Below, one piece after another: positions 13,944-21,932 of a stretch of 22,083 bases of DNA (positions within the stretch are counted from its first letter, which is position 1; every line of letters begins with the position of its first letter). A program made the position numbers and the translations under genes. The stretch comes from a virus: IMG/VR virus record IMGVR_UViG_3300031918_000161, positions 1 through 22,083 of that record, one strand, 5' to 3'. The notes beneath the pieces are model-generated. The model saw only the letters and a program-made list of their open reading frames with translations. It was not told the origin of the DNA and made no database searches.

Positions 13944-14092
13944 GGCCAATAGCTCCCAATGATTGCCGCCAGAAACGCCGCGACAGCCCAGAACGCGGCT
14001 TGTGCCTTGGTCGGCATGCCGTTATCTGCTCCGTCATAGAACGGCACCTCAGGGTGCGGGTCTTTGTTGACGAATTTGGTGAACCTCTTCAT
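13940..14092 (-). CDS. Small one-TM membrane protein, 50 residues
   Basis: A 50-residue protein starting at ATG 14092, with GGAGAAGGAG upstream and an ATGA overlap with the preceding stop; a longer frame from 14206 lies inside the neighbouring gene. The first half is polar (MKRFTKFVNKDPHPEVPFYD). The second half is a single membrane segment (KAQAAFWAVAAFLAAIIGSY) ending at the C-terminus. This is a tail-anchored topology. Function unknown. Confidence 0.65.
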   Translation of the reverse strand: MKRFTKFVNKDPHPEVPFYDGADNGMPTKAQAAFWAVAAFLAAIIGSYWP

Positions 14093-14355
14093 TGATACTT
14101 CTCCTTCTCCAAAATATTGACAATGAGGGTCGCGTAGCCAGCGATGTCTTGCCAAGTGTCCGACTTGTTCGGGTTTCCGCAAGCAATCCGCGAAAGTTTC
14201 GTGCAAATCATATCGACAGATTCCTGCTGGGCGAAATTCAAGGAGGACGTGCCAGTATTCATTACGTTTTTCAGGTTTTGCGCAACGCGGGACATGTACT
14301 CATAATCACCGTAATCGCCGCCCCTGTTTTCTAGTACTTCTTCAGTTGTTGCCAT
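14089..14355 (-). CDS. DUF6378-like phage protein
   Basis: A protein of 88 residues, GGGAGGT just upstream of the ATG. It shows the layout I associate with DUF6378: an N-terminal ENRGGDYGDYEY segment, a central helix (QQESVDMICTKLSRIACGNP) and a C-terminal helix starting DTWQDIAGYATLIVNIL. The family is common in phages and has no established function. The helical arrangement with Asp in the last helix recalls all-alpha NTP pyrophosphatases, but I do not see their EExxE motif. It lies in the transcript downstream of the Z genes. Confidence 0.72.
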   Translation of the reverse strand: MATTEEVLENRGGDYGDYEYMSRVAQNLKNVMNTGTSSLNFAQQESVDMICTKLSRIACGNPNKSDTWQDIAGYATLIVNILEKEKYQ

Positions 14356-14770
14356 AACACCTCCCTGGTCGTTTGATTATGCTCAAAAATTGTGCTGCCG
14401 GTATCTCTCCCTGCCAGATCGCCGCAGCATGTCTTAGCGCGTTTTCCTGATGAGGCTCGGCTCGGAGGCTGGCGGCGGCGGACCCCGGCACGATGATAAA
14501 AAGGTCGTCATACTGTATCAAAAACAGCGGGTATCCGCCAGCCTTAATCCGTTCTTCGAACCATATTTTCTGTGCGGCCCGCACTTCAATTTCCGGCCCG
14601 CACTTCAACTCCAACCAACCGTCTACCCCGCAATAGCAATAATTCAGATCGGGGATTCCGATTGCTGTGTCGTGGCTCTCAACCCACGATATGTGGAGGC
14701 GGGTATCCTTCATTGACGCGACGACACGTTTCACGGTCTGCCGCAAGGCGCGTTCTTTCTTCGATAGCAT
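14342..14770 (-). CDS. PD-(D/E)XK nuclease, VRR-NUC-like
   Basis: A protein of 142 residues starting at ATG 14770 behind AGGAG at five bases. The nuclease core is clear: G38-I-P-D41 then W-L-E54-L-K56 (PD...ExK) and RAAQKIWFEERIKAGGYPLF, with the Gln typical of VRR-NUC and related resolvase-like enzymes. Such small phage nucleases act on branched DNA or nick DNA. The gene overlaps the upstream datZ by 92 bases, an unusually long overlap. It could serve recombination, replication or host DNA breakdown. A role tied to the modified genome is only speculation. Confidence 0.8.
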   Translation of the reverse strand: MLSKKERALRQTVKRVVASMKDTRLHISWVESHDTAIGIPDLNYCYCGVDGWLELKCGPEIEVRAAQKIWFEERIKAGGYPLFLIQYDDLFIIVPGSAAASLRAEPHQENALRHAAAIWQGEIPAAQFLSIIKRPGRCYGNN

Positions 14771-15278
14771 CGCTGCTCCTGAATCTGATATATGCTAATG
14801 TCCTGACCGCCGCCGTCCGCAGGTCTTCGGATGCCTCGTCGAGGTAGGTCCGTAACCTCTCGTCGACCTCTACCACAGCCGATCTGCCACGGGTGCCCGT
14901 CGCATGCTCGGTTATGAAAATAAGGTTCTCTATCAAGTCAGCAGCTTTTATTATCCTGGCCACTTTATCGATGGGGGCTTGCTCTCCAATATGGTCGTCC
15001 TGGTAATTGTCTGGATCGAACCCCGCTGCCTTCATGCCGCGCTTGGTGGGAGTGGGGATGTCGCCAGTGTAGGACTCTTTGACGTCGTGGATCAGCGCGA
15101 AGTAGCAAACAGTCTTCTCGTCGATGCCAGGGACGTTGAACATCCTCTTACGGATTTCCATGGCGATCATCGCCACCCCGAAACTATGGCTGGCGACGGT
15201 ACTTTCCCTGTCAGTGCCAACCATAGTCCAGCGCTTGACGTACTGACAGTCCATAAGGACGTCAATTGGCGTTTTCAT
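14679..15278 (-). CDS. datZ: HD-domain dATP triphosphohydrolase (DatZ-like)
   Basis: A protein of 199 residues of the YfbR-like HD phosphohydrolase group. Visible residues: R16-W17, the STVASHSFGVA segment with H31, the H64-D65 pair in ALIHDVKESYTGDIPTPTKR with E68 and D73, and the last Asp at 114 (KAADLIEN). In Z-genome phages the enzyme of this fold is DatZ, which removes all three phosphates from dATP so that adenine is kept out of the genome. Its location right after mazZ and purZ (17-base overlap with mazZ) supports that role. Alone, the sequence would fit a 5'-deoxynucleotidase of the same fold. Confidence 0.82.
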   Translation of the reverse strand: MKTPIDVLMDCQYVKRWTMVGTDRESTVASHSFGVAMIAMEIRKRMFNVPGIDEKTVCYFALIHDVKESYTGDIPTPTKRGMKAAGFDPDNYQDDHIGEQAPIDKVARIIKAADLIENLIFITEHATGTRGRSAVVEVDERLRTYLDEASEDLRTAAVRTLAYIRFRSSDAIEERTRLAADRETCRRVNEGYPPPHIVG

Positions 15279-15570
15279 GTTTCAAAGCCCCCTTCTGGGA
15301 TTTCCATTCTCTGGTCATGTTGATTTTCATTTTCTTGTCGAATTCCGCTTCCAGGTCTATTTCGAGCAGGTAAGCAACATCAACGAGAAGGATCAAAATG
15401 TCAGCACACTCTTGGCCAGCATCGCCGTCTTTCATGTAAATAGAGTGTTGCAACTCGGCCACTTCTTCGGCCAATTTGATCGCCGTGTTCATCGGGTCCC
15501 TGAACCGGTCCGGCAATAGCGGACTGATCCAGTCGACCACGATTTTAGCCATCGTGTCGACTGATTTCAT
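15262..15570 (-). CDS. mazZ: MazG-like nucleotide pyrophosphohydrolase (MazZ-like)
   Basis: A protein of 102 residues, a single MazG-type all-alpha domain. The metal-binding residues are present: E35, E36 and E39 in KLAEEVAELQHSIY, and E54 with D57 in GQECADILILLVD, followed by the usual DLEAEFDKKMKINMTREW end. In Z-genome phages MazZ converts dGTP to dGMP, the substrate of PurZ. The start at 15570 has GAGG nine bases upstream, lying across the end of purZ. Only one base separates it from the purZ stop. Its assignment as MazZ rather than a general MazG comes from this context. Confidence 0.83.
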   Translation of the reverse strand: MKSVDTMAKIVVDWISPLLPDRFRDPMNTAIKLAEEVAELQHSIYMKDGDAGQECADILILLVDVAYLLEIDLEAEFDKKMKINMTREWKSQKGALKHENAN

Positions 15571-15571
15571 T

Positions 15572-16606
15572 TTAGTTTACCTCGGCAATATCAGCTGGGA
15601 GGGGGCCGCTGCCGATATAGCCAACGCCCCCGCAACCAATCTCTGCGGCCACATCGTCAATAACGTCTACGGCAACCATGCTAGCCGCCTCATTGTACTG
15701 CGCAAAGTTCAGGAACACCGCCGTAGGGTGTGTCATGATCATCGCTTCGCGAATTTGCAAAGCCGAAAAGCTGGCTACGCGGCGAATTCGTTGGGTGACT
15801 GTGGTCAGTTCAGGCTCGACGCCAAGAGCCTCGAACGTGGTTTCGATCTGATCGTCGTACCATTCGCCGCTGAATCCGTCTGTAGTATTGCCGACGCGGA
15901 TCGGGTGAACGCGCGCACAGCCGAACGTGTCGCGAAGCCACGCAATCGGCAAATTCGCGTCAGCCAGAACCCGACCAACGGTGCAATCACGGCTGGTGCA
16001 ATAGGGATAAAACCCGCTGCTCAAGCCCAGCGAATAGCCCTGGCTACCTTCAACAAGAATGCTGCTCTTGTTGCCCATTATTTCGAGCCATTCGGTCTGA
16101 TTGACGACCCGTACCGGGCCAAATTGGCCTGGGCCAGATTCAAGGGCTACCGACCAATCCTTAGCTATTGCCTTCGGCAGGCGGCGAATCTTGTCGATCA
16201 AGGCTTCGGCGCTGCCCTGCATGGTGCTGGAAATCCGGCTGAGCGTCGATGCCTCGGTCGTCTTGTGAATGTCCTGCGCAACACACGCCGCCTCGTGAAT
16301 GATTAGCACCAAGTCGCTGCGGTATTCGCAAACGGCTTTCCACTCGTCCATCAAACGGTTGATGTAGAAAACTGCGCCGGGGCCGATGCCGATTACCTTG
16401 AGTTCGCTGCCAAAGATGGCAGATGGCAGCACCTTGTGAATAAATTTTTCGCCGGTATCGGGCGAGTACGCCGTATGGCCGGCATTGGGGGCGTTACAGC
16501 TAATGACCGCCTCGTATCCCTTTTTGACCCCCAGATATCCGGACAGCAACCCCTTGCCGGTGCTGCCGAATTGAAGGTCAACCAGTACATCAATCTTGCG
16601 TTCCAT
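15572..16606 (-). CDS. purZ: PurZ, 2-aminoadenylosuccinate synthetase of the Z-genome pathway
   Basis: A protein of 344 residues of the PurA (adenylosuccinate synthetase) family, shorter than the roughly 430 residues of bacterial PurA. The N-terminal loop reads LQFGSTGKGLLS, where cellular PurA has GDEGKGK: the catalytic Asp is Ser15. This replacement is the known hallmark of phage PurZ, which joins dGMP and aspartate using ATP to make the precursor of 2-aminoadenine. NAGHT (H44), GIGPGAVFYINRL and VEGSQGYSLGLSSGFYPYCT are the other conserved blocks. GGAG lies eight bases before the ATG, about 40 bases below a strong promoter. The host PurB and kinases would finish dZTP. Confidence 0.93.
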   Translation of the reverse strand: MERKIDVLVDLQFGSTGKGLLSGYLGVKKGYEAVISCNAPNAGHTAYSPDTGEKFIHKVLPSAIFGSELKVIGIGPGAVFYINRLMDEWKAVCEYRSDLVLIIHEAACVAQDIHKTTEASTLSRISSTMQGSAEALIDKIRRLPKAIAKDWSVALESGPGQFGPVRVVNQTEWLEIMGNKSSILVEGSQGYSLGLSSGFYPYCTSRDCTVGRVLADANLPIAWLRDTFGCARVHPIRVGNTTDGFSGEWYDDQIETTFEALGVEPELTTVTQRIRRVASFSALQIREAMIMTHPTAVFLNFAQYNEAASMVAVDVIDDVAAEIGCGGVGYIGSGPLPADIAEVN

Positions 16607-16696: not shown

Positions 16697-18916
16697 TCAG
16701 GACGTGCCCTGCTTCGCTTCTGCGTTCTTGTGCAATTCTTCGACTGGCGGGACCAGCAACAGACGCCCGGTGTCAGAGAAGCCGTATGCAAGTATGTTGG
16801 AGGAAAATACCGGCAGCGACAATACGTCCGCTACTGTTATGCGCACTTCCTTACACCACGCCCTATACTCGGCAAACAATTCGTACTTGAGCACTTTGCT
16901 AGGCCAATCCACGACATCGCCCACCATGTGCTCGGAGTCCAGGGTATCGAAACCCCCGCGCTGGATGCACTCGGAAATGAACTGCAACAAACTATCGTGC
17001 CTGTGGCTTAGTCTTCGTTGATCCAGCAGCCCTGCTGTGACCGGGGCCATTCGCAGGTTACTAGTTATCTTTCTGGCCTGTAGCAGGTGCAGCAGAGCGC
17101 CCAGCCCACCATTTTCTATCTCGTTCCACATGGCGTCGAAGTATGATTTATTCCCGGCCATGGCTTTGTTGCAATTCAGCACCATCCAGCGTCTGGATTG
17201 CGGTCCTGCCGGAATTATCCATTCCTCATTAGACGCTATTATCACGTGGGCCAAGTTGTCTATTTCAATGCTATCGATGCCTTTGGCTTCCTTGGTGACC
17301 CTTCGCTCTGATACCAACCCCTTAAGGATGTTTGCTGCTTTGCGGTCCCCCGGCCACAGCACCTCGTCCGCAAACACTACTACGCTGTCGCTGGTCAGGC
17401 TGTTAAATCTGGTGGTCAATCGTTCAGCGTCGATCAGGTGGGTGTAATGTCTGCCAAACAGACGGCCAAATGTGTCAGCCCATACGCCTTTGCCGCACCC
17501 TTCTACTCCTCGCAACACGATGCACGTTCCCTTTATGTCCCGACTGTTTTGTACGGCGTCTGCCATCCAGTCCAGCATCCACTCGTAAATCCCTCTCTCT
17601 CCGTCGCATATTACGTCCCTCATGTGTGTAAGGTAAAGTTCGCAAGAAGCGGTCGGGTCCGGAGTGGCTCCCCAGCCGTTCCACATGTTTAGCGTCCCTG
17701 CGGGTTCGTCCCCTTGGGGGTGTATGGCTATGTCGTAATACTCCCTGCGGTGCTCTGATGCTATCCATATCTCGCTCATGGCTTTTTCGATGTAGCCTGA
17801 TCGGGTCGGCATTTGAATTTTGATGTTCGCGGCCATCGTGGAGAATGACTGAACGCTCAGGAATCCGACTTTCTCTCCGTTGGCGTTCTTGTCGAAGGTG
17901 GCTATTACTGCGCTCTTCGATATTCTGACCAGAGCGAACTGCTTATTCATCTGCAACACGCGTTCTTCTACTTCTGCGTCCACGGATGGGTTGGACATAT
18001 CGCCCGGCAGCGGTCGCCACCCTGCTTCCTTGGCCATGAACAGCAGAGTTCCGAACCCAACCCTGCCATCTTCATCAAATGATTTCCACCGGAATCCACA
18101 TTCCCCCATTTTCCGTCTGGCCCCACCAGATGACCACTCGTCCCAAATCTCCAAGCCGTCATCGCCACAGGATGATTTTAGGGCCATGCCCACCCGCACC
18201 CAATCCTCATAGGACAGAGAATCTGGGTCAATCACCATCAACATTCGGTTGATTTGCGAGGTCGGCACTTCCGTTTTGACGTCTTCGGTTTTGCGCTTTT
18301 CTGACCACGGCTGGCCTAAGGCAGAGGACACCCATTCTGGCATGGGAGGGACTTCTCCTCCCTCTTCCCACACATAAGCTTTCCCGTTAAACACGGAAGG
18401 GAAAGCGACGATGTGGCCCGTGCAACGATCCGCTGTGCCGCCTCTGGTGTCAATGCCATTGGCAATTTTGCTGCTGCTGCTAGCGGCGTTGTCCTGCCAC
18501 TCGTATAGGTAGTGGAAACCCCCTGATGGTGTGGCTTGTCTTGGTCCATGCGGTAACGGTCCTTCCTTCGAGATTATCCTGGCCACTTCCTTGATGCCCG
18601 TCGTGCCCCCTACGGGCTTAGCGTCTATGTCTAGGGCCATCACACCGCCCTTAGTACCGCAGCCGATGCCTAGATTAAATCCGCGAAACTTTCCTCCTTC
18701 TCCGAACCATTTTTCAACTGTGGCTACTTTCTTGCTGGCAGACATGTAATTAATGCCGGTGTTCCCTGCCGGGAGCTTCTTGCTGTTCGGCTCCAGCGGC
18801 AGGACCGGAATGCCGGCCTTGGCATAGCAAATCGCACAATGGAGTATGGCATCATTGAACTCCATTTTCTTGGCTTTGTTTATTTCCAACAGATCCAACG
18901 CTATCGTATTATTCAC
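16697..18916 (-). CDS. Primase-polymerase / SF3-type helicase
   Basis: A protein of 739 residues. I prefer the GTG at 18916, which has GGGAGG upstream and overlaps the polymerase stop, over an in-frame ATG at 18943. Residues about 20-200 form a prim-pol domain: catalytic D96 and D98 in VMALDIDAKP, GGFHYLYEW, and GIDTRGG with GHIVAFPSVFNG. Residues about 232-302 look like PriCT-2 (LSYEDWVRVGMALKS). The C-terminal helicase has Walker A GVEGCGKG (about 470-477), Walker B VVVFADE (about 512-518), sensor VIIASNE and an Arg pair (SRRW). It would prime and unwind phage DNA. Phage S-2L, the classic Z-genome phage, also relies on a PrimPol. Confidence 0.87.
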   Translation of the reverse strand: MNNTIALDLLEINKAKKMEFNDAILHCAICYAKAGIPVLPLEPNSKKLPAGNTGINYMSASKKVATVEKWFGEGGKFRGFNLGIGCGTKGGVMALDIDAKPVGGTTGIKEVARIISKEGPLPHGPRQATPSGGFHYLYEWQDNAASSSSKIANGIDTRGGTADRCTGHIVAFPSVFNGKAYVWEEGGEVPPMPEWVSSALGQPWSEKRKTEDVKTEVPTSQINRMLMVIDPDSLSYEDWVRVGMALKSSCGDDGLEIWDEWSSGGARRKMGECGFRWKSFDEDGRVGFGTLLFMAKEAGWRPLPGDMSNPSVDAEVEERVLQMNKQFALVRISKSAVIATFDKNANGEKVGFLSVQSFSTMAANIKIQMPTRSGYIEKAMSEIWIASEHRREYYDIAIHPQGDEPAGTLNMWNGWGATPDPTASCELYLTHMRDVICDGERGIYEWMLDWMADAVQNSRDIKGTCIVLRGVEGCGKGVWADTFGRLFGRHYTHLIDAERLTTRFNSLTSDSVVVFADEVLWPGDRKAANILKGLVSERRVTKEAKGIDSIEIDNLAHVIIASNEEWIIPAGPQSRRWMVLNCNKAMAGNKSYFDAMWNEIENGGLGALLHLLQARKITSNLRMAPVTAGLLDQRRLSHRHDSLLQFISECIQRGGFDTLDSEHMVGDVVDWPSKVLKYELFAEYRAWCKEVRITVADVLSLPVFSSNILAYGFSDTGRLLLVPPVEELHKNAEAKQGTS

Positions 18917-20747
18917 CCTGCGCCTCCCAATAATCGGAACCAACCCCTTTTAGGTCCAGCACCAGCGGAACCCTGACCCACGGCACCGCTGCTCGAATCC
19001 CTTCCTGCAGAAGTTCCCTTAGGTCTTTCACGTTTGTCCCCTCTTTCACATTCATCTCGTATGAATCGTGGGTGTTCATTATTAGATGGTTGCCGCTACC
19101 GTCAAAAATGCGGTCACTGAGCAGCCACATTTCTTTGTTAATGTCTGCAGAGGTGGCTTGAATAGCCAGTCCTGACGCTTTGTATGTCTTGAATTTGTTG
19201 GGGAACCGCAGCCTTCGGCCATGCTTGGTGGCCACATATCCAAAAGACTCTGCTGTGGCCTTGGCCCGTTGCGCCAATTCTTTCACCCCCGGCACCCGCT
19301 CGTGATATTTGGCTATCACAGCCTCTGCCTCGTCGCCAGCCTTTTTGTACTTAACGACTTTGCCGGCTTTGTCGGAGAAACTGTTCCAGTCCCATGCCAT
19401 GCCCATTTTGTCGGCAATAGCTCCGTTCCCCGAATTGAAAATCATCGACAGATTCAACTGTTTGGCGTTGGCTTGTCCGCTGTAGGTGGCGTTGCGGGTC
19501 AGACCGGTCAGGTCAGCGACATATTGGTGCAGGTCCATCATTTCGTTGGCTGCGTATGCTTCGTTGATCACGGGATTGTTCACCAAGTGGGCAAACACCC
19601 TGACCTCGAAACTGTTCATGTCGTAAGCGGCCCACTGGCACCCCAACTCTGGCAGGAACACTGGCTTGACGATACTGGCCACCTTCTTGTTGCGGCTGGG
19701 TATTTGTTGCAGGGCTGGTGCGGTGTAAGATAGTCTGCCAGATCCGGTACCCGCATCTTCCCCCTTATTCTGGTTTATGTTGGGGTATACCCTGTCCCCC
19801 ACAGCATGCCCCAGCACGTGCCCACCCAGGAATGTATCCCTGGTCTTGGTCGTGGATCGAATTGTGAGGATCAACTGCGCTCTGCGGTCGTTTTCCATGC
19901 CTCGCAGCGCTTCTGCGTCCAACGATGGGTTGCCACTGTCTGTTTTTAACAGGTGATGCCCGTTGTCCGCAAACCACTCGCCCGTTTCGTCTTCTTTCGG
20001 AGCAAACAATTCCCGTGTTTGCTTGGGGCTGTTGACGTTTATTTCCTTGCCAATCAGTGCTGTTAACTCTTTCTGATCGGATTCGATCACCAGAGTCAAT
20101 CTGGCCATGGCTTGCTCGGCCTTTTTAAGGTCTACCCTGACCCCCCTGATTTCCGCCTTGACGATCGGGACGAACACCCGGCGCTCGAATTCGCAGATCC
20201 GCTGGATTCCCTGCCGAGCTATTTCTTCTTCCTGCCATTGCCACAGCCTCATGGTCAGCACGGCGTCTTTGATGGCGTATGGGCGAACTACTTCTGGAGG
20301 TGCCCGGTGCAAATTGGGCATCTGAACGGTTCTGGTGGCTCTGCCCCCAAAGATCTTGGCCAGTTCTGGGTATATGTCTTCTTTTCTTTCGCCTAGGTGC
20401 TTGTCGCACAGGTAGTCTAGGCTAAAACTATGTTCATGTTCGTTGATCAGACAGGCACGGGTTACAGTGTCGTCCATTCTGTCTAATGGCAGGTACAGCC
20501 CACTGGAGTCGGACATTTTATAGTCGAAGGATGCATTGTGGCAAATGACTGTGCCAGAGAATCGGCTCATTTCGTCATTAAACCAATCTGTAGCACCCGG
20601 CTCATGCCGAACGTCGTGATAACATGCTGTGCCATCAGGCAGAGCGATAGAGAAACCAAAAGCCCGATTAGTTGGCCAATTCAGGCCATCGGTTTCTGTA
20701 TCGAATGCTATCTGTTCGGCTTCGCTAAAGCGAGGCCAGGAGTTCAT
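18909..20747 (-). CDS. dpoZ: Family A DNA polymerase with 3'-5' exonuclease (DpoZ-like)
   Basis: A protein of 612 residues. The exonuclease has all three motifs: D16-T-E18, N71-x3-D75 (CHNASFDYKM) and Y157-x3-D161. The polymerase has TGSGRLSYTAPALQQIPSR, motif A with D376 and E381 (AAYDMNSFEVRVFAHL), motif B and motif C with H560-D561. Motif B is unusual: GQANAKQLNLSMIFNSG keeps the Lys but has Gln, Leu and Phe where E. coli Pol I has Arg754, Phe762 and Tyr766, and motif C reads HDS rather than HDE. DpoZ, the Z-phage family A polymerase, favours dZTP over dATP, partly through its exonuclease. The name here relies on co-occurrence with purZ. ATGA overlaps the upstream gene. Confidence 0.85.
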   Translation of the reverse strand: MNSWPRFSEAEQIAFDTETDGLNWPTNRAFGFSIALPDGTACYHDVRHEPGATDWFNDEMSRFSGTVICHNASFDYKMSDSSGLYLPLDRMDDTVTRACLINEHEHSFSLDYLCDKHLGERKEDIYPELAKIFGGRATRTVQMPNLHRAPPEVVRPYAIKDAVLTMRLWQWQEEEIARQGIQRICEFERRVFVPIVKAEIRGVRVDLKKAEQAMARLTLVIESDQKELTALIGKEINVNSPKQTRELFAPKEDETGEWFADNGHHLLKTDSGNPSLDAEALRGMENDRRAQLILTIRSTTKTRDTFLGGHVLGHAVGDRVYPNINQNKGEDAGTGSGRLSYTAPALQQIPSRNKKVASIVKPVFLPELGCQWAAYDMNSFEVRVFAHLVNNPVINEAYAANEMMDLHQYVADLTGLTRNATYSGQANAKQLNLSMIFNSGNGAIADKMGMAWDWNSFSDKAGKVVKYKKAGDEAEAVIAKYHERVPGVKELAQRAKATAESFGYVATKHGRRLRFPNKFKTYKASGLAIQATSADINKEMWLLSDRIFDGSGNHLIMNTHDSYEMNVKEGTNVKDLRELLQEGIRAAVPWVRVPLVLDLKGVGSDYWEAQGE

Positions 20748-20999: not shown

Positions 21000-21248
21000 C
21001 TACGATTTTCGATGCTGTTCCATGTGGTGTGGATGGCATAACCACATTACATCCAGCGGCTTTGAATAGTCCTCGTGATGGGCGTGGGCATCCGCTCCGC
21101 ACTTCTCGCAAGGTTGTTTCTCCAATCTTCCGTCGCGTACGGCGTTACTGACGGCATAGTGGGCGGCATAGACTTCCGGTCTTTCCTCCTTCATTCTGGC
21201 CGTAACCTTGGCCCCGCACCGAATGCATGATTTTTTGGGCGGTGTCAC
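21000..21248 (-). CDS. HNH-like zinc-binding protein, 82 residues
   Basis: An 82-residue protein that starts with GTG overlapping the SSB-like stop as GTGA. It contains C8-x2-C11 and C47-x2-C50 pairs and ends CEKCGADAHAHHEDYSKPLD, then VMWLCHPHHMEQH, giving the HH and C-x2-HH of an HNH-type fold. It may be a small endonuclease or a zinc-binding DNA protein. It shares this C-terminal module with the 139-residue protein at 21513-21932, two genes away. Confidence 0.7.
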   Translation of the reverse strand: MTPPKKSCIRCGAKVTARMKEERPEVYAAHYAVSNAVRDGRLEKQPCEKCGADAHAHHEDYSKPLDVMWLCHPHHMEQHRKS

Positions 21249-21523
21249 GCTACACCGTAGCTAAAAGGTATATCGTCGTCCAGATCGTCGACCATGTAAG
21301 GCTTCGGCTCTGGCGCTTTGACGTACTTGGCGTCCTTCTTTTCAAAAGACATTGACAAGAATTTGGACCCCGGATTCTTGGCGTTAGGCCCGGCTACTTT
21401 TATCCATCCGCTGGCCCACATTTCGACTCCATCGATGTTGGCGCTTCCGCGATAGTCGGGTTGCGCGTCGTTGGTTTTGTCATTCTTGAACATCACGCCT
21501 TTGTTAGTATTATCAAATGCCAT
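21245..21523 (-). CDS. SSB-like protein with DDDIPF motif
   Basis: A 92-residue protein. The ATG at 21523 has GGAG seven bases upstream; a longer frame from 21562 lies in the preceding gene. Residues about 8-60 are beta-rich and could be an OB-like fold (GSANIDGVEMWASGWIKVAG, then GSKFLSMSFEKKD). The C-terminal region is acidic and reads VDDLDDDIPFSYGVA. DDDIPF is the exact tip by which bacterial SSB recruits partner proteins, here followed by five more residues. Position upstream of the polymerase supports a single-strand binding role. The fold itself is not proven by sequence. Confidence 0.65.
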   Translation of the reverse strand: MAFDNTNKGVMFKNDKTNDAQPDYRGSANIDGVEMWASGWIKVAGPNAKNPGSKFLSMSFEKKDAKYVKAPEPKPYMVDDLDDDIPFSYGVA

Positions 21524-21932
21524 TATGAATCTCCAAATGGTGTTTCCTACATAACCACACAACGGATAGGGGTTCGTCGTAATTCGGATGGTGGCCTTCT
21601 GAGCTTAGACTTCCACAACAGAAGCAAGGAAGCTTAGCTAGCACCCCTGATCCTACGGCCTTTCTAACCATGTCGGCCAGATCATTGCCCTTAGTAACAA
21701 CTAAACGCCTTTCCTTTTTCGATGCGGCATTCTTTCGACCGGATCTGCGCTTATTAGTTGCCACTCTTTCAGGAGTTTTCTTGCCGGATTCCTTCACGTT
21801 TTCTCTATTGCACTCGACGCATATCCAATTAGAAGACAACCTCTCTGCTATGTGCCCGTAGATACAGGGCTTTCCCGTAAAATATCGAGAAAGCCCCCTG
21901 TCCAGAGCTTCTTTTCTGGACAGTTTATCCAT
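21513..21932 (-). CDS. HNH-like endonuclease, 139 residues
   Basis: A 139-residue protein, start overlapping the preceding stop as TAATG. The N-terminus has a zinc-binding type segment (GKPCIYGHIAERLSSNWICV, then ECNRE) often seen in phage HNH proteins, a basic middle (residues 50-80) and a C-terminal HNH-like module, CFCCGSLSSEGHHPNYDEPL followed by VVWLCRKHHLEIH. It may be a free-standing homing-type nuclease or a phage processing enzyme. The last 11 bases overlap the SSB-like gene. Confidence 0.72.
   Translation of the reverse strand: MDKLSRKEALDRGLSRYFTGKPCIYGHIAERLSSNWICVECNRENVKESGKKTPERVATNKRRSGRKNAASKKERRLVVTKGNDLADMVRKAVGSGVLAKLPCFCCGSLSSEGHHPNYDEPLSVVWLCRKHHLEIHNGI

Follow-up and report, generated by a model that had tools for sequence, protein, structure and literature searches.

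The reactions by which phages replace adenine with 2-aminoadenine (Z) have been described in earlier studies of phiVC8 and S-2L (PMC8342488, PMC12884076), and the chemistry of the synthetase in this pathway, PurZ, is already published. PurZ uses ATP (PMC8342488). One sentence in PMC12884076 gives the preferences of PurZ0 and PurZ as "ATP and GTP, respectively", which contradicts both the introduction of that paper and PMC8342488; the two nucleotides look to have been swapped there. Serine takes the place of the PurA aspartate in the active loop of 147 of 147 phage sequences (100%), and archaeal relatives carry serine or glycine at this position (PMC12884076). The Asp-to-Ser change is a published hallmark of the PurZ family and not new with the locus described here. 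S-2L is described as lacking DpoZ and as being replicated by a PrimPol (PMC8065100).

A Z-DNA operon in an environmental viral contig

The stretch of DNA that we analyzed (hereafter the window) spans all 22,083 bases of an IMG/VR virus record. It is apparently a fragment, with about half the length of a phiVC8- or ZP6-sized genome (38-39 kb). On its minus strand lies an operon in the order ssb, dpoZ, primase, purZ, mazZ, datZ and nuclease (phrog_2165), with a DUF6378 gene at the end:

21245-21562, minus strand: single-strand DNA-binding protein (phrog_18154, E 3e-11; phrog_7364, E 7e-11)
18909-20747, minus strand: DpoZ, aminoadenine-incorporating family A DNA polymerase, 612 aa (NF038380; 7pbk)
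16697-18943, minus strand: primase with Prim-Pol, PriCT-2 and DUF5906 domains, 748 aa (domain and phrog matches)
15572-16606, minus strand: PurZ, 2-amino-2'-deoxyadenylosuccinate synthetase, 344 aa (phmmer, Pfam, NCBIfam, tree and structure model)
15262-15570, minus strand: MazZ of the MazZ-1 (S-2L) type, predicted dGTP-to-dGMP hydrolase, 102 aa (S-2L MazZ 7ody, E 9e-11)
14679-15278, minus strand: DatZ, HD-domain dATP triphosphohydrolase, 199 aa (PF12917, E 1e-16; phrog_7076, E 3e-24; DatZ 6zpa, E 1e-6)
14342-14770, minus strand: phrog_2165 protein, 142 aa (orthologues labelled "nuclease" or "DNA helicase", at the same place in ZP6, Bm1 and phiVC8)
14089-14355, minus strand: DUF6378 protein at the downstream end (PF19905, E 7e-9; ZP6 and Bm1 have a counterpart in this position)

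The purZ gene thus stands in one operon with datZ, mazZ and dpoZ, and the window's gene order recurs in many viral contigs as well as in phiVC8 and ZP6. Compared against the window's proteins, 88 of 103 loci with PurZ or PurZ0 had a DatZ match and 81 had a DpoZ match. The polymerase scored 829.7 bits with the phage_DpoZ_1 model NF038380, above its cut-off of 500, which places it in DpoZ group 1, and it matched phiVC8 DpoZ (7pbk) at E 2e-209. The DatZ residues R16, W17, H31, H64, D65, E68 and D114 are invariant with S-2L and phiVC8 DatZ. MazZ retains the metal ligands E35, E38, E50 and D53, the guanine-site residues I56 and D60, and R83 (S-2L numbering; read against PMC8342488), as expected of the MazZ-1 type.

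It is from homology and operon content that we infer the enzyme activities and the presence of Z-DNA in this virus. MazZ would supply dGMP from dGTP, and PurZ would form dSMP from dGMP and aspartate at the expense of ATP (or dATP); host PurB and kinases would then carry dSMP on to dZTP. With DpoZ polymerizing Z opposite T and DatZ clearing dATP, adenine in the phage DNA would be replaced by Z.

The operon combines features of both described phages. Like the window, phiVC8 has the order DpoZ, primase, PurZ, MazZ and DatZ; however, its MazZ is of the MazZ-2 type, whereas the window has a MazZ-1 inside an otherwise phiVC8-like operon. The phiVC8 and ZP6 proteins at the mazZ position are shorter, lack the MazZ-1 tail and gave no tblastn match to the window's MazZ. 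S-2L shares the MazZ-1 partner. The closest annotated phages, Burkholderia phage Bm1 and Stenotrophomonas phage BUCT555, have a DUF550/MazZ-1-like neighbor and DUF6378, although Bm1 differs from the window in having no primase between DpoZ and PurZ. The window and the related contigs L022 to L028 add to the Z-DNA phages an environmental lineage with a phiVC8-like replication set and an S-2L-like MazZ-1.

Two side observations concern genes near purZ. Counterparts of the DUF6378 protein lie near purZ in ZP6, Bm1 and Ochrobactrum phage OH and are annotated as phosphofructokinase in Bm1 and OH; a nucleotide-pool enzyme is a possible role for this protein. In another contig, L103:2637-4898 encodes a predicted protein in which a uracil-DNA-glycosylase-like domain is fused with a family A DNA polymerase; a PurZ gene (L103:5995-7059) and a gp32-like protein lie downstream of it.

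The window gene belongs to the PurZ family

The purZ frame runs from an ATG at 16606 to a stop at 15572, with 344 codons and no internal stops. An earlier note on this DNA had identified the gene as purZ from its letters, and its reading of the sequence (GSTGKG, Ser15, threonine for the following glutamate, NAGHT with His44) was correct in residues and coordinates by translation and alignment. The elements discussed below are:

16550-16567, minus strand: GSTGKG loop, residues 14-19, with the Ser15 codon at 16562-16564 (translation; alignment to PurA GDEGKG and PurZ0 GSEAKG)
16472-16486, minus strand: NAGHT, residues 41-45, including His44 (translation)
15698-15709, minus strand: NFAQ, residues 300-303 (alignment; S-2L ligand contacts in PMC8342488)

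The identification as PurZ is strongly supported by sequence, tree, fold and operon. In phmmer searches, the nearest solved chains were phiVC8 PurZ (6fm1, E 5e-78) and S-2L PurZ (7odx, E 4e-61), followed by PurZ0 at E 4e-23, while no PurA did better than E 8e-13. Among annotated phages, the best relatives were Bm1 (53% identity), BUCT555 (52%) and ZP6 (49%); identity was 44-47% to phiVC8 PurZ and ~40% to S-2L PurZ over 88% of the length, and a close relative, L022, was 78% identical with its motifs kept. The protein matched PF00709 at 99 bits and scored 287.5 bits with the NCBIfam PurZ model NF038379, 12.5 below the curated cut-off of 300, compared with 91 bits for the purA model TIGR00184. 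On reference proteins, NF038379 gave 350-422 bits for validated PurZ, 241 for the divergent PurZ of Ochrobactrum phage OH, which is likewise below the cut-off, and 127 for E. coli PurA. When viral contigs were scanned with the single sequence P0001, one near-copy (L002) was found, while an alignment query returned hundreds of matches, partly via the GSTGKG pattern.

In a tree of 64 sequences, the window protein grouped with six relatives from viral contigs (support 100/99), within a larger set that also holds ZP6, phiVC8, Bm1 and BUCT555 (100/99). The AlphaFold2 model was confident along the entire chain (pLDDT 94.3), and in a Foldseek search of the PDB ranks 1 to 9 were all PurZ structures (TM 0.76-0.92). 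The model matched 6fm1 with Z 48.6 over 330 residues at 1.4 Å, whereas archaeal PurA reached Z 38.5 and PurZ0 (7vf6) 38.4. Sequence, tree and fold thus all place the protein nearer to PurZ than to either PurA or PurZ0, and by its sequence it is a fairly divergent new phage PurZ within the known family. Like the window protein, phiVC8 PurZ has GSTGKG, NAGHT, a TTVT tip and an FLNF ATP site; the two differ in that the window protein carries the insert N-T-T-D-G-F ahead of SG, and Gln303 where phiVC8 has asparagine. S-2L PurZ has the same motifs, with glutamine at the adenine contact (Q303 in the window, Q308 in S-2L).

Serine 15 alone does not mark PurZ

Residues 10-19 of the window protein read DLQFGSTGKG, with Ser15 aligned to the PurA aspartate and Thr16 to the glutamate that follows it. 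By alignment, this loop is GDEGKG in PurA (E. coli and P. horikoshii), GSEAKG in PurZ0 and GSTGKG in PurZ, and the histidine of NAGHT is invariant in all three families. Full-length tblastn collected 12 PurZ from phage records and four PurZ0, and because all 16 keep the serine (12/12 and 4/4), Ser15 is not a chance change. Serine also occupies this position in 59 of 59 rows of a wider PurZ set, a count that is biased since many rows were retrieved by the GSTGKG pattern, so that motif counts among those loci carry no independent weight.

The earlier note took Ser15 to be diagnostic of PurZ. Taken alone it is not, because PurZ0 shares the serine, and archaeal relatives have serine or glycine there. 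With the Asp-to-Ser change common to PurZ and PurZ0, the Glu-to-Thr change becomes the mark of PurZ proper, and in the alignment the Ser-Thr pair and the NFxQ motif of the ATP site separate PurZ from PurZ0. Nor does shortness serve: the protein had been described as about 85 residues shorter than PurA, and at 344 aa it is 88 shorter than E. coli PurA (432 aa), but it exceeds by 4-5 residues the length of P. horikoshii PurA (339-340 aa), which retains the aspartate.

The ATP site provides a further distinction. The window residues N300, F301, A302 and Q303 fit NFx(N/Q), which replaces the TKxD of PurA (TKLD in E. coli); in S-2L PurZ, N305, F306 and Q308 bind adenine (PMC8342488), and their window counterparts are N300, F301 and Q303. 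The tip at T268-T271 is TTVT in the window and GATT in E. coli PurA. These comparisons sharpen the sequence marks that set PurZ apart from PurZ0 and PurA to the Ser-Thr pair, an aspartate at position 10 and NFxN/Q, rather than serine alone or length. One PurZ gene (L101:937-1974), on a metagenome contig that also has DpoZ and DatZ matches, reads GSCGKG, with cysteine for the usual threonine.

Alternative assignments

We consider it very probable that the product of the window gene is a functional tailed-phage PurZ, acting in the Z-DNA pathway. Were it instead an enzyme of the PurZ0 type, which uses GTP as in Gordonia phage Archimedes, the serine in place of aspartate and the shared PurA fold, with its strong match to 7vf6, would be accounted for. 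However, PurZ0 has glutamate and alanine in its GSEAKG loop, glycine at position 10 and no NFxN/Q, whereas the window has GSTGKG, D10 and NFxQ; the PurZ0 sequences form a clade apart from it (100/98); and the genes beside purZ are DatZ, MazZ and DpoZ_1 rather than DutZ or DmtZ. Loop, tree and neighbors led us to reject this assignment, which we regard as extremely unlikely.

It is just as improbable that the protein is a short PurA making AMP precursors from IMP, with the role of the aspartate moved, for example, to D10. PurA resembles the window protein in its fold, the PF00709 match, NAGHT and the conserved lysine and arginine residues, P. horikoshii PurA (5k7x) is equally short, and D10 is an invariant aspartate in PurZ only five residues upstream. 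Yet PurA acts on IMP through GDEGKG with its catalytic aspartate, where the window has Ser15, and the TKxD guanine site of E. coli PurA is missing; phiVC8 and S-2L PurZ, enzymes that act on dGMP, have D10 as well; and PurZ is closest in sequence, structure and tree, within a Z-DNA operon. That the gene encodes a decayed or repurposed PurA-like protein with no synthetase activity is equally hard to credit, given an open frame of 344 codons, the presence of every residue that PurZ, PurZ0 and PurA share without variation, the confidence of the model and the retention of the motifs in L022.

The chemistry at Ser15 and Asp10

In adenylosuccinate synthetase, the PurA aspartate acts as the general base at N1. 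The earlier note's hypothesis was that the 2-amino substrate changes the chemistry needed; dGMP, however, carries a proton on N1, so the 2-amino group alone does not make a base dispensable. In principle, a carboxylate at the position of Ser15 could bond to N1-H and N2-H at once. Ser15 would line the dGMP pocket on the N2 side, in place of the aspartate that takes the N1 proton in PurA. In S-2L PurZ, the serine hydroxyl is 3.7 Å from N2, a distance considered too great for hydrogen bonding; the serine was described as possibly useful for its polarity, lying near an arginine and touching the triphosphate (PMC8342488).

An aspartate supplied from elsewhere, which according to the earlier note would speak against its reading, has one visible candidate in the window, D10 (16577-16579), five residues before Ser15. 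This position is aspartate in 59 of 59 PurZ rows, where it was not demanded by the pattern used to retrieve viral contigs; E. coli PurA and the four PurZ0 have glycine here. PurZ may have shifted the acidic function within the loop, such that Asp10, directly or via Mg2+, water or a neighboring arginine, serves the N1-proton or 6-phosphoryl step. We hold this to be unlikely, since the case for D10 is weakened by the absence of its S-2L counterpart, D18, from the dGMP-pocket residues listed for that enzyme (PMC8342488). If it were true, PurZ and PurZ0 would compensate for the loss of the aspartate by two distinct routes.

PurZ-type genes on bacterial chromosomes

In a genome scan, a PurZ-type gene (P0002 and P0003) came up on two contigs from bacteria, L105 (994 kb) and L104:

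L105:5968-7011 and L104:5977-7014: PurZ-type gene with DGQFGSTGKG, NAGHT and FLNFANY

In both contigs the order is cmk, purZ-like gene, Ham1/RdgB-like gene, rpsA and sppA, with glpK upstream, and the proteins scored 206-209 bits with the PurZ model and 70-80 with the PurA model. In each of the two genomes (1.6-1.8 Mb), the PurZ-type gene was the sole PF00709 member found. No purA, no PurB or GuaB above cut-off and no DatZ/YfbR was found in these genomes, whose assemblies are possibly incomplete; a weak purB match in genome G002 turned out to be fumarase. The sequences look like those of a cellular PurZ-type enzyme rather than a phage one. Chromosomal PurZ-type genes in genomes where no purA was found are more surprising than the PurZ of the window.

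A different arrangement was seen in bacterial genome G093, where L119:1348-2979 (minus strand) encodes a 543-aa fusion of an N-terminal kinase-like P-loop region to a PurA/PurZ-like domain, flanked by two ORFs. Its loop, GQFGSEGKG, has serine for aspartate with the glutamate kept, and G093 also has a second PurA match of ordinary length.
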